IMG/VR virus record: IMGVR_UViG_3300010354_008420
Coordinates: 1-30,739 of that record
Direction: 5' to 3' (one strand)
DNA from: a virus
Length of the DNA stretch: 30,739 bases
The position numbers and the translations under genes are program-made. The notes under the pieces were generated by a model, which saw only the letters and a program-made list of their open reading frames with translations, was not told the origin of the DNA and ran no database searches. This document shows, in pieces, positions 10,207-25,478 of the stretch (positions within the stretch are counted from its first letter, which is position 1; each line of letters opens with the position of its first letter).

Positions 10207-11904
10207 CTATATTGTCCTGCATACTACGTCTGTAGAAAGGCCTTGCTGAAAAGTATGGGATACCTCTGTAACCACAAGGCTCTCTGTTCCAACAAAATTC
10301 TGATAAGCATATTTAATTGAAACAATATCTCCTATTTGTATTAATGGATTTCCAAAAATTTTCATTTTTACTATTCTTCCTTTATTAATTATTTGTGTCT
10401 TTATCCAGTCTCCCAAAGATTTAGCGTCTTCTAATCTTTGTACCCATGTTGTTTCAAACACCACTGGTCTTTTTACAGCATAGTCGTTATCCATTTTTGT
10501 TTCATATTCTAAAGTTGATGATTCAGTAATTGGATTTCCATATAAGAAAAAGTTTGCTGCATTCCCGTCAGCAAGAGGAGTGGTTGTTGAGCTATTATTA
10601 ATTGCCCAAACTTGAGATGAAAAGTTATTATAATCTTGTGAAAGAATAGATACTGCAGAATTTACTCCAGTGTCCCACCCTATAGGGTAGGCTGGAACTT
10701 TATTAAACTGTACATCAAATTTTCTAATTTCTCTAACAACAGTACCAAATTCATCAATAAAGTTTTTTACATTGCTTGGTAATTCTCCTTCTTGAAATTT
10801 TAATTCTCCAAAGGCTGTTGACAATAAATCTTTAGAATATCTTCCATAATATTTGTTTGTAATTGCAGAAACATCAGAAAACTTTTTTTCATCTATCTCT
10901 AAAGCGTACACATAATCAAAATGAGCTTTTCCTCTTGTACAAAGAAGAGCAATTTTTTGTGTAGGATCTACAATTTTAGTAACCTTTTTAGTCCCAGTGT
11001 CGTACTTGCTTGTGTCGGATGCAGAAAATTTTATTCCATTGATATATGCATTCATCTCAATTATTTTGCCTGAAACTTTAACTCTTATATCTACATTATA
11101 TATTTCTCCTGCAAATATTGAGACATCTATTGTTTCAGCTAATGTCTCTACTCCGCTTTTACCTGTTACTAACTTTACCCACCTTAATGTTTTCCTGGAT
11201 GTTTCGGCAGCTGATGATGCTGTTTCCATAATGAGGTAGTATCCCTTATTTCCTCTTTCATCTGCAAAAAATCCTATACCTGCTCCAGACTTACCGTTAT
11301 CTAGATCCGCAGCAAATCTAAAACTTGTACCGAAAGAATAGTATTTTGTTGAATATGAAGGTACTGTATTTTTACCCCCAGGTAATAGTACTGGGGAGCT
11401 TGTAGGTAAAACTACTGATTCAAAAGTTTTTGTAGCAAGTGTATTTTTTTTATCGTCTGATTGTTTAGATGAAAGAGTTAAATATCCTTTATAAAAATTA
11501 CTATTTATATCTTTTGGATCTGTAGAATTTCCTAATAAAGATTGACCTGCTATTTCTTCGTCCATGGTAAATGTAGGAGTTGTTAAAACTTGCGTTTCTT
11601 TATCTTGAGAAGCAAAATATGCAACAATTTCTAATTTATACTTATTGCCTTTTAATAAATTAGGAACAATAAATGTCGAAGATGTAGGATCTGGATCTAG
11701 TGGAACTGGTGATGTTGCTGTTGTTACATTTATAACATTTACCTTATAAAAAGATGGCTCTTCATCCATGTTCATAGTTTCAACAGTTACCTCGACTGCA
11801 TTATCAGATATTTGAATTATTTTAGGAGAATTTATAATAGATTTGTTTTCATCAACTCCAGCGTCGTTATCGAGCATGAACCCACCACTAAAAGCTAACA
11901 CCAT
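10207..11904 (-). CDS. Minor tail/tail-tip protein with lectin-like domain
   Basis: 565 residues from ATG 11904, which overlaps the upstream stop as TAATG like three other tail junctions here. An in-frame ATG at 11934 has GGGAGG close upstream and would add 10 residues, so the start is not certain. Residues about 25-110 look fibronectin-III-like; about 185-340 resemble a concanavalin/LamG-like beta sandwich (SFGTSFRFAADLD ... GIGFFADERGNKGYYLIME) that may bind surface sugars; the C-terminal 150 residues (IQIGDIVSIKY, VVTEVSHTF) resemble baseplate-hub beta modules. It follows the large tail-tip gene, suggesting a receptor-contact or hub role. No catalytic residues identified. Confidence 0.7.
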   Translation of the reverse strand: MVLAFSGGFMLDNDAGVDENKSIINSPKIIQISDNAVEVTVETMNMDEEPSFYKVNVINVTTATSPVPLDPDPTSSTFIVPNLLKGNKYKLEIVAYFASQDKETQVLTTPTFTMDEEIAGQSLLGNSTDPKDINSNFYKGYLTLSSKQSDDKKNTLATKTFESVVLPTSSPVLLPGGKNTVPSYSTKYYSFGTSFRFAADLDNGKSGAGIGFFADERGNKGYYLIMETASSAAETSRKTLRWVKLVTGKSGVETLAETIDVSIFAGEIYNVDIRVKVSGKIIEMNAYINGIKFSASDTSKYDTGTKKVTKIVDPTQKIALLCTRGKAHFDYVYALEIDEKKFSDVSAITNKYYGRYSKDLLSTAFGELKFQEGELPSNVKNFIDEFGTVVREIRKFDVQFNKVPAYPIGWDTGVNSAVSILSQDYNNFSSQVWAINNSSTTTPLADGNAANFFLYGNPITESSTLEYETKMDNDYAVKRPVVFETTWVQRLEDAKSLGDWIKTQIINKGRIVKMKIFGNPLIQIGDIVSIKYAYQNFVGTESLVVTEVSHTFQQGLSTDVVCRTI

Positions 11905-14000
11905 TATGCCCAGGAAGCTTTGTAAGCCTTCCATCCACCTCCCGTAAAAGCCTCACTAGTTTTAACATGGGCTGCAGGAGTAGTACCTAAAGCGCCCCTC
12001 TGTTTAACCCTCAATTTATTACTTGGACCGAAAGTTACATTTAAAATACCTGTAGAAGGATCATACCGTCTACTTTCTGCTAGCGCTTGGTACTTTGCAA
12101 CATCAGATTCAGATTCAATCCAAACATATTCTACTTTCTTATTTAACTTATTAACTAATTTATATTGCACAGCATCATACTCTATAATTTCAGAATTAAT
12201 AACTAAATACCCTGAATAAGAAAATGGAGAAAATATATTATTATACTCTGTCATTTGATCTATTTGAATTTCTATACCATCGCCTGCTGCTGGACTAGAA
12301 GAGGTAGTTTCAGATAGCAAAGCTCCTGCAGCAAGATAACTGACTGGAGAAGAATAAAGTGCTTCTGAAGATCCTATTAAATTAGAATTAAATGGGCTAT
12401 TATAAATAACCTTAACCTGATTAGCGCTTGGTATTTCTTTATGGCTGAAAAATGCTATGTTAGGAAGAGTTGTTCCGTCTTGTTCGTATGTAAATGTAAA
12501 AGATTTTTCTTTTGTATTGTCATATATATAGTTTCTACTTGATATTAATAATGTCCCATACTCATCAAAAAAAGCATTCATCTGTGTATCATTACATATT
12601 TCTTGAATTGATTCCCAAACGCTTTTTCTTCCATCTGACCACCAATAATTTATTAATGGAATTGAGTTGTCTGATTTAACATTTATTCCAAGAACTGGAT
12701 CGACTTCTTCTTTAATATTAAAATAATAGTTAGTAAATCCTACAGAATCTAGAAGCCCAGTAATTACTCCCGTTGCTGGGTAAGATTCATATAATCTTTC
12801 TGGAGCTATCGATTCCATTAAAAATTTTGCATAATCAAATGCCTGTATGTTTACAGAACCGTAACTAGATATCTCCCATGAATCTATATAAAATACTCCC
12901 TGCTGAACTACATCATAATTTGATGTTACAGTTACTGCATTACTGTGATAAATTTTAAAATAAGTTTTAATTTCTGCTTTTGCAACCATGTAAATAATAT
13001 CTGGATTAATAGATGAGTCTTCAAAATTATAATTTTTAATTTGCAAGGTAGCATTATTCATAGAGTTATCTTCATATCTAGCTAGATCTAAAACCATTGA
13101 ATTAGCAGAAACTTTTCCAACTGGTAGTATATCTTCTGAATTTGCAGATGCTTCTTTTTTAATCTGCATAGAAACTATATCTTCAGATATATCCTTTACA
13201 AGTCTTCCAGAAACTTCTATCAATCCTATTATTTTATCAGATTGATTGTTTGCTGTAACCCTAATCTTTTCTACCTCTAGTGGATTAGCATACTTAAATT
13301 CTGTTCCGTCACTATTAGCATAAATATCATTTAATCCCGCTTCCCATGCGTCTACAGATTTATCAACATAGTGTAAAATTAATTTGCCATTAAAAATGCT
13401 TGTATATGTTCCAATAAGAGTTTCTGGCTGATTCTTTAATTTTATATAAACGCTGCAACTTGACGGAATGTAATGAAATTTTTCAAAGGTAATAATTATT
13501 TTATTTATAAAAGCTGTTTTACTAGAGTTTGAATTAACATAATTTACAGACACATCTAAGTTCTTACCAATTGGAGTAACAAAATATTTATATTCATTAG
13601 TATCTCCCGCATAATAAACTCTAGGCATATCGCTAGGGTACTCGTATGTCCTTAAAGAAGAATAGCTGTATGGTGGTCTTAAATTTAAATTGTCGGATTG
13701 CTTTTCAATAAATTCAGATGGAGTAGAAATATAATATTTAACTCCTCCAACTTGCGGCCTAAATGGTTTAACAATAGAGTCTACTGGAAATAATTTTTTA
13801 AAAGGATTAACTTTTAATAAAGCTGGTGTACCATCTGAATTTTTTACTTGTGATATATAATCACTATCTGTTGCAGTAGTAGTTACTGTTAAATTCTCTA
13901 ATAAAGAATTCATATTATATTCTATTCTTGCACCAGGTTTGGCAACAATAGAAGATTGTTGTTTAAATAAATTAGTTAAGTTTGAGGATATATTTAACAT
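11904..14000 (-). CDS. Tail-tip/hub protein (Tal- or baseplate-like)
   Basis: 698-residue protein in the position of the tail-associated hub, two genes downstream of the tape measure. The N-terminal half contains a beta-sandwich of discoidin-like look (about 150-270: SSCSVYIKLKNQ ... KIRVTANNQSDKIIGLIEVSG); the middle (about 330-520) resembles the ring-forming hub fold of siphovirus tail tips (WEISSYGSVNIQAFDYAKFLMES). I see no lysin motif. The ATG overlaps the previous stop by one base (TAATG) with AGAGGT about 4 nt upstream. The role is to close the tube and hold fibres; the assignment is from position, size and composition. Confidence 0.7.
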   Translation of the reverse strand: MLNISSNLTNLFKQQSSIVAKPGARIEYNMNSLLENLTVTTTATDSDYISQVKNSDGTPALLKVNPFKKLFPVDSIVKPFRPQVGGVKYYISTPSEFIEKQSDNLNLRPPYSYSSLRTYEYPSDMPRVYYAGDTNEYKYFVTPIGKNLDVSVNYVNSNSSKTAFINKIIITFEKFHYIPSSCSVYIKLKNQPETLIGTYTSIFNGKLILHYVDKSVDAWEAGLNDIYANSDGTEFKYANPLEVEKIRVTANNQSDKIIGLIEVSGRLVKDISEDIVSMQIKKEASANSEDILPVGKVSANSMVLDLARYEDNSMNNATLQIKNYNFEDSSINPDIIYMVAKAEIKTYFKIYHSNAVTVTSNYDVVQQGVFYIDSWEISSYGSVNIQAFDYAKFLMESIAPERLYESYPATGVITGLLDSVGFTNYYFNIKEEVDPVLGINVKSDNSIPLINYWWSDGRKSVWESIQEICNDTQMNAFFDEYGTLLISSRNYIYDNTKEKSFTFTYEQDGTTLPNIAFFSHKEIPSANQVKVIYNSPFNSNLIGSSEALYSSPVSYLAAGALLSETTSSSPAAGDGIEIQIDQMTEYNNIFSPFSYSGYLVINSEIIEYDAVQYKLVNKLNKKVEYVWIESESDVAKYQALAESRRYDPSTGILNVTFGPSNKLRVKQRGALGTTPAAHVKTSEAFTGGGWKAYKASWA

Positions 14001-24816: not shown

Positions 24817-25478
24817 TTACTCCTTAGAGTATCCCAATCCCATTCCGATTCCAAATCCAGCTTCATTTGCAAACGAACCCTGTAATGACACTACATCATC
24901 AGCGGATGCGTTTATTCCTAAAGCTCTTCTTCGAACATCGTCGAAACTAGGACCCTCCTTTTCTTTTTTATCATCTCTAAGATCTACTCCCTGTAAAGAT
25001 GCTAAAAATATTCTATTTTCTTCTTCAGCTTTTTGTTTTGATTTCAGAGTCTGAAGAATCTCTGGCATTGATAGATTGCTTTCTATTTCGTCATAATTCT
25101 TCCAGTTACCCAGAAGAAATAACTCTCCTAATAAAGCGGCAAGATCTAGTTCTGACCAGCCAGAACCGCTGCCGCCATCAGGTTTGGGTCGTCCATCTTA
25201 ATTCCTCCACAAACTTCTAGAATGCGGTTAATTGTTGGAACATCCAAAGCGTCTTCTAATGCATCTCTATCTTTTACAAGATCTGGTAATTGCTTTTCTA
25301 AAGCTACAGCACATGCATCAATAAGAATTGTTAATGTCTCATCTTCATTTTGAACATCTGCTGTTTTTTGAATTACTGTCATGAACTTACGTAACTCTTT
25401 AATTGTAAGAGGTTTTAGAGTGACTTTATTGCCATTCTGAAGTTCAATTTCTTCTACGTCGTATACTTTTGTAGCCAA
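24817..25478 (-). CDS. Tail assembly chaperone, -1 frameshift fusion (GT-type)
   Basis: Product of a -1 ribosomal frameshift: 99 residues in the first frame (25478-25182), then base 25182 is read again and translation continues for 121 residues to the stop at 24817, giving about 220 residues. The extension begins PDGGSGSGWSELDLAALLGELFLLGNW and ends in a charged, partly disordered segment. Fusion chaperones of this type bind the tape measure and recruit tail tube subunits. The second frame has no ribosome binding site of its own near its first ATG (25068) and is open back past the slip site, so independent translation is unlikely. Its end overlaps the ribosome binding site of the tape measure gene. 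Confidence 0.88.
25136..25188 (-). promoter_or_regulatory. Programmed -1 frameshift signal: CCCAAAC plus nested stem-loop
   Basis: In the zero frame the heptamer reads C CCA AAC (25182-25188), a perfect X-XXY-YYZ slip site. Six nt later a nested stem-loop begins: outer stem GCGGCA (25170-25175) with TGCCGC (25136-25141), inner stem GTTCTG (25161-25166) with CAGAAC (25149-25154) around a 6-nt loop. The zero-frame TAG (25146-25148) lies inside it. Spacing and structure are those of known -1 signals. Confidence 0.88.
25146..25478 (-). CDS. Tail assembly chaperone, short form (G-type)
   Basis: 110-residue protein between the tail tube and tape measure genes, the fixed place of the tail assembly chaperone in long-tailed phages. 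N-terminal beta strands (VYDVEEIELQNGNKVTLKPL) are followed by helices (IKELRKFMTVIQKT, DALEDALDVPTINRILEVCGG), typical of the family. The start is a TTG at 25478 with AAGGAGG 5-6 nt upstream. Most ribosomes would stop at TAG 25146; a fraction shift at the CCCAAAC site to make the fusion. The ratio of both forms is needed for tail assembly. It has its own promoter upstream. Confidence 0.85.
   Translation of the reverse strand: MATKVYDVEEIELQNGNKVTLKPLTIKELRKFMTVIQKTADVQNEDETLTILIDACAVALEKQLPDLVKDRDALEDALDVPTINRILEVCGGIKMDDPNLMAAAVLAGQN

Follow-up and report, generated by a model that had tools for sequence, protein, structure and literature searches.

A predicted lambda G/GT-type programmed -1 ribosomal frameshift in the tail assembly chaperone gene of an uncultivated phage, with a probable relocation of the slip site in one clade

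The programmed -1 frameshift of phage lambda gpG/gpGT has been reviewed in PMC5009743 (citing Levin 1993 and Xu 2004, 2013, 2014), and this tail chaperone frameshift is widely conserved among long-tailed phages (PMC5009743). We analyzed a comparable locus on the minus strand of a window of 30,739 nucleotides, which comprises positions 1 to 30,739 of the IMG/VR record IMGVR_UViG_3300010354_008420. As in lambda, an overlapping ORF pair is found between the major tail and tape measure genes, and a -1 slip close to the end of the first ORF is predicted to give a short G protein and a minority G-T fusion. Unlike the lambda site, the window contains the slippery heptamer CCCAAAC followed by a clear downstream stem-loop.

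The genes of this region are arranged in the order major tail, G, T and tape measure. The zero-frame ORF (25478-25146) starts with TTG and encodes a G-type tail assembly chaperone of 110 amino acids, and its end reads ...GGIKMDDPNLMAAAVLAGQN. The heptamer, at 25188-25182, is read as C_CCA_AAC in the codons GAC CCA AAC, which is the phase suited to a tandem -1 slip. The -1 frame is closed by a TAA at 25200-25198, opens just ahead of the heptamer and thereafter stays open until a TAA at 24819-24817, and the T-type domain in this frame (25182-24817) comprises 121 amino acids and the stop. The predicted fusion joins 25478-25182 to 25182-24817, reads base 25182 twice and contains 99 + 121 = 220 residues. 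These readings agree with the initial annotation, which left the strand unstated but had described a heptamer in the correct phase, a narrow window for shifting and a fusion of 220 residues. The G and T ORFs directly precede the tape measure protein gene (24813-14476, 3445 amino acids; phrog_10030, E 6e-116 over the part searched), and directly upstream of them is a gene encoding a major tail protein-like protein with an Ig-domain (26267-25587; phrog_2175, E 3e-29), which is syntenic with the 'major tail protein' gene of Streptomyces phages.

When we compared the two parts with protein families, the G part matched phrog_10504 (E 1e-37) and, weakly, phrog_344 'tail assembly chaperone' (E 2e-4), while the T part matched phrog_10474 (E 4e-16). 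In tblastn searches and record comparison, both parts proved homologous to proteins annotated as tail assembly chaperones in Streptomyces phages of the Stanwilliamsviridae, and this homology together with the gene order bears out the earlier assignment of the gene as a tail chaperone. Neither G nor T had a match above the cut-off in Pfam or NCBIfam, the family searches detected nothing similar in sequence to G or T of lambda, and a sequence search against solved structures yielded no credible match. AlphaFold2 modelled G with low confidence (mean pLDDT 64), and comparison of the model with the PDB gave no significant match, the best TM among the matches listed being 0.41 for YqbN (3klu; E 0.98). 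A literature search combining this phage family and frameshifting found no dedicated paper among those covered.

The Stanwilliamsviridae phages Kenrey, Patelgo and TunaTartare, and also Francob, carry homologous G (approximately 45-53% identity) and T domains in identical gene order, with a CCCAAAT heptamer at the same D-P-N codons, and joined chaperone CDSs have been deposited for Kenrey, Patelgo and TunaTartare. They are different from the present locus in that they are cultured soil phages, their heptamer ends in T, the overlap is 3 nt longer and the downstream fold of these Streptomyces relatives differs. In six Streptomyces phage records (L004, L088, L089, L090, L092 and L093), the T part is annotated as a separate, internally started gene that omits the conserved first residues, and the joined CDS is probably missing from these records. 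Three of them, Angela (L004), Coruscant (L090) and Karimac (L093) of the Boydwoodruffvirinae, contain no X_XXY_YYZ; they have CCCGGAA instead, read as C_CCG_GAA at the homologous codons right after the -1-frame stop, and may use a different kind of slip site. In Rhodococcus phage Francesca (L091), a distant relative for which a joined CDS has been deposited, a GGGAAAA is located only 16 nt ahead of the zero-frame stop.

CCCAAAC is not enriched as a word in the window (3 found against 2.5 expected), and the chance of any in-phase X_XXY_YYZ within 17 codons is approximately 14%, with the rate taken from other genes. The heptamer motif by itself is not significant; its conservation is. Scans of viral contigs yielded 310 sequences including the window, among which some loci were the same contig fetched twice, and 171 of the sequences were distinct. 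All 171 contain an in-phase X_XXY_YYZ within the narrow stretch left open in the -1 frame, namely CCCAAAC in 125, AAATTTG in 28 and CCCAAAT in 18, two of the last overlapping AAATTTA. Furthermore, the zero frame shows suppressed synonymous variation from codon 97 onward to the gene end (p ~1e-8, a value that ignores relatedness), a pattern that a slip site with dual coding after it would produce.

The AAATTTG sequences form a clade in which GAC CCA AAC CTN has been replaced by GAT CCA AAT TTG. The peptide Asp-Pro-Asn-Leu is kept, while CCCAAAC has disappeared and A_AAU_UUG has arisen one codon downstream; GAT is present in 28/28 of this group and GAC in 143/143 of the others, and none of the 171 distinct sequences lacks both heptamers. 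A tree from which these codons were left out places the relocation at a single point, so that the 28 sequences represent one event and not 28. In L285, CCCAAATTTA, at 0-based offset 323-332 counted from an ORF start at locus position 1001, contains two in-phase heptamers that overlap and may represent an intermediate between the two states of the slip site. Based on these observations, we suggest that synonymous changes probably moved the slip site of one clade from C_CCA_AAC to A_AAU_UUG, a distance of one codon, and that they were accompanied by a G-C to A-U exchange in the stem, with the overlapped sites of two other relatives as a possible intermediate stage. If this is true, the relocated site is a natural experiment on slip-site turnover without loss of function, and it is the sole part of the locus that would interest a recoding specialist.

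The putative stimulatory stem-loop (25175-25136) starts after a 6-nt spacer, CTGATG. Its outer stem pairs GCGGCA with TGCCGC (25175-25170/25141-25136), its inner stem pairs GTTCTG with CAGAAC (25166-25161/25154-25149), and the zero-frame stop TAG (25148-25146) is enclosed between the inner stem and the outer 3' arm; the spacer, the nested 6-bp stems and the enclosed stop had all been noted before and are present in the window. For the 52 nt that follow the heptamer, the folding energy is -19.4 kcal/mol (z = -2.4 relative to dinucleotide shuffles), and a 111-nt stretch including the heptamer gives z = -3.8. Conservation of the heptamer and stem in relatives had been proposed as a check on the initial annotation; an in-phase heptamer is kept in all 171 distinct sequences, and the stem is conserved in part. 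Pair counts over 81 close sequences, 40 of them distinct, showed the 5-bp core of the outer stem, GCGGC/GCCGC, to be paired in all 81 (40/40 distinct), and in the AAATTTG clade one pair of this core was exchanged on both sides from G-C to A-U, a compensatory change. The sixth outer pair (A-U) was absent in 28 of the 40 distinct sequences, and in the inner stem four pairs were invariant and two were broken in 3 and 6 of the 40. Since the sixth outer pair and two inner pairs are not conserved, the comparison supports only the outer 5-bp core well and leaves the inner stem less secure, and covariation in the stem is slight. A stem-loop supported by conservation is found a few nucleotides past the heptamer, as in 3' stimulators of the dnaX type. 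A longer basal helix closing the 6-nt spacer (columns 8-13 with 56-61) was also considered and rejected; it has some compensatory cells, but 2 of its 6 pairs are broken in 30-50% of the sequences.

We then examined coding in the -1 frame. Past the zero-frame stop, this frame shows a pN/pS of 0.22 and no stops in 50 distinct relatives, while the other two frames show values of 1.2 and 2.2 and have stops in 47-50 of the 50 sequences, a pattern that marks the downstream -1 frame as a gene under purifying selection. One could suppose that G and T are two separate genes and that the -1-frame ORF is started independently, for example at the ATG at 25068. The simple ORF list does give a separate 83-amino-acid ORF there (25068-24817), splitting the fusion as the initial annotation had expected of a simple ORF caller, and several Streptomyces phage records annotate the T part on its own. 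However, the conserved -1-frame segment starts about 30 codons ahead of this ATG: its W-x-E-L-D-L motif begins approximately 10 codons past the slip, still within the zero-frame overlap. In 98/104 sequences no ATG, GTG or TTG precedes this motif in the T frame, so the -1-frame domain would need a shift; the listed exceptions have TTG only, inside the G gene, and phage TunaTartare and L101 are without any ATG, GTG or TTG across the T frame. Independent initiation also leaves the heptamer conservation unexplained, and we regard it as very improbable.

A GGAGG (25208-25204) and an ATG (25196-25194), found in the GGAGGAATTAAGATG that stands directly ahead of the heptamer in the window, could be taken as an internal start or as a Shine-Dalgarno-like stimulator of the shift. 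This candidate was rejected because it is not conserved: some relatives have CTT or CTG for the ATG, many have GGTGG for GGAGG, and a Shine-Dalgarno-like core is found in that stretch in only 37/104 sequences. Although the window has a GGAGG, its lack of conservation speaks against an upstream stimulator of the dnaX type. The ATG is in the zero frame, and ribosomes starting there would reach T only after a shift. GGAGG and the heptamer are 15 nt apart, slightly more than the range optimal for -1 stimulation. Either role is very improbable. That the heptamer arose by chance in a decayed or misassembled gene, through sequencing error or pseudogene formation, might seem compatible with the 14% chance rate given above, but the site is conserved in 171/171 sequences across independent assemblies, which already refutes this explanation, and both parts are under purifying selection; its probability is negligible. 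Transcriptional slippage is unlikely, as the site has no long A or T run.

The locus thus combines overlapping ORFs before the tape measure gene, an in-phase slippery sequence near the end of the first ORF, a second ORF that is coding in the -1 frame and appears reachable only by a shift, and chaperone homology, which are the features of the lambda type. Based on the chaperone homology, the gene order, the heptamer conservation including its synonymous relocation, the purifying selection confined to the -1 frame and the absence of another start for the conserved -1-frame segment, we suggest that the tail assembly chaperone gene very probably undergoes a lambda G/GT-type programmed -1 ribosomal frameshift, as the initial annotation had proposed, with the shifting itself deduced from sequence. 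Most ribosomes would translate the chaperone gene as far as the TAG, giving the 110-residue G. A minority would be paused by the stem-loop 6 nt downstream, both tRNAs would slip from CCA AAC to CCC AAA, and reading would go on in the -1 frame to yield the 220-residue G-T fusion at a rate that we likewise infer. By analogy with lambda, G may coat the tape measure protein, and recruitment of the major tail protein may fall to the T portion of the fusion. In the lambda type, G and GT are both produced at a set ratio and are absent from the virion. Such an arrangement has long been known and is therefore not surprising; the locus is an ordinary further member of the lambda G/GT group and leaves the understanding of tail assembly frameshifting unchanged. 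For an abundant group of uncultivated phages with relatives among the actinobacterial phages, it puts right the annotation of a fused gene which simple callers divide, and the deep alignment allows slip-site conservation and relocation to be studied.

Elsewhere in the window, two overlapping ORFs on the minus strand (10207-11934 and 11904-14000) correspond to successive parts (5-614 and 671-1074) of one minor tail protein family, phrog_10359; in Streptomyces phages a single gene, for example LilMartin gp58, matches both. By eye, no slippery heptamer was seen in their 31-nt overlap. Since a GGAGG is found shortly before the ATG of the second ORF, the pair looks like a split gene with a coupled start.
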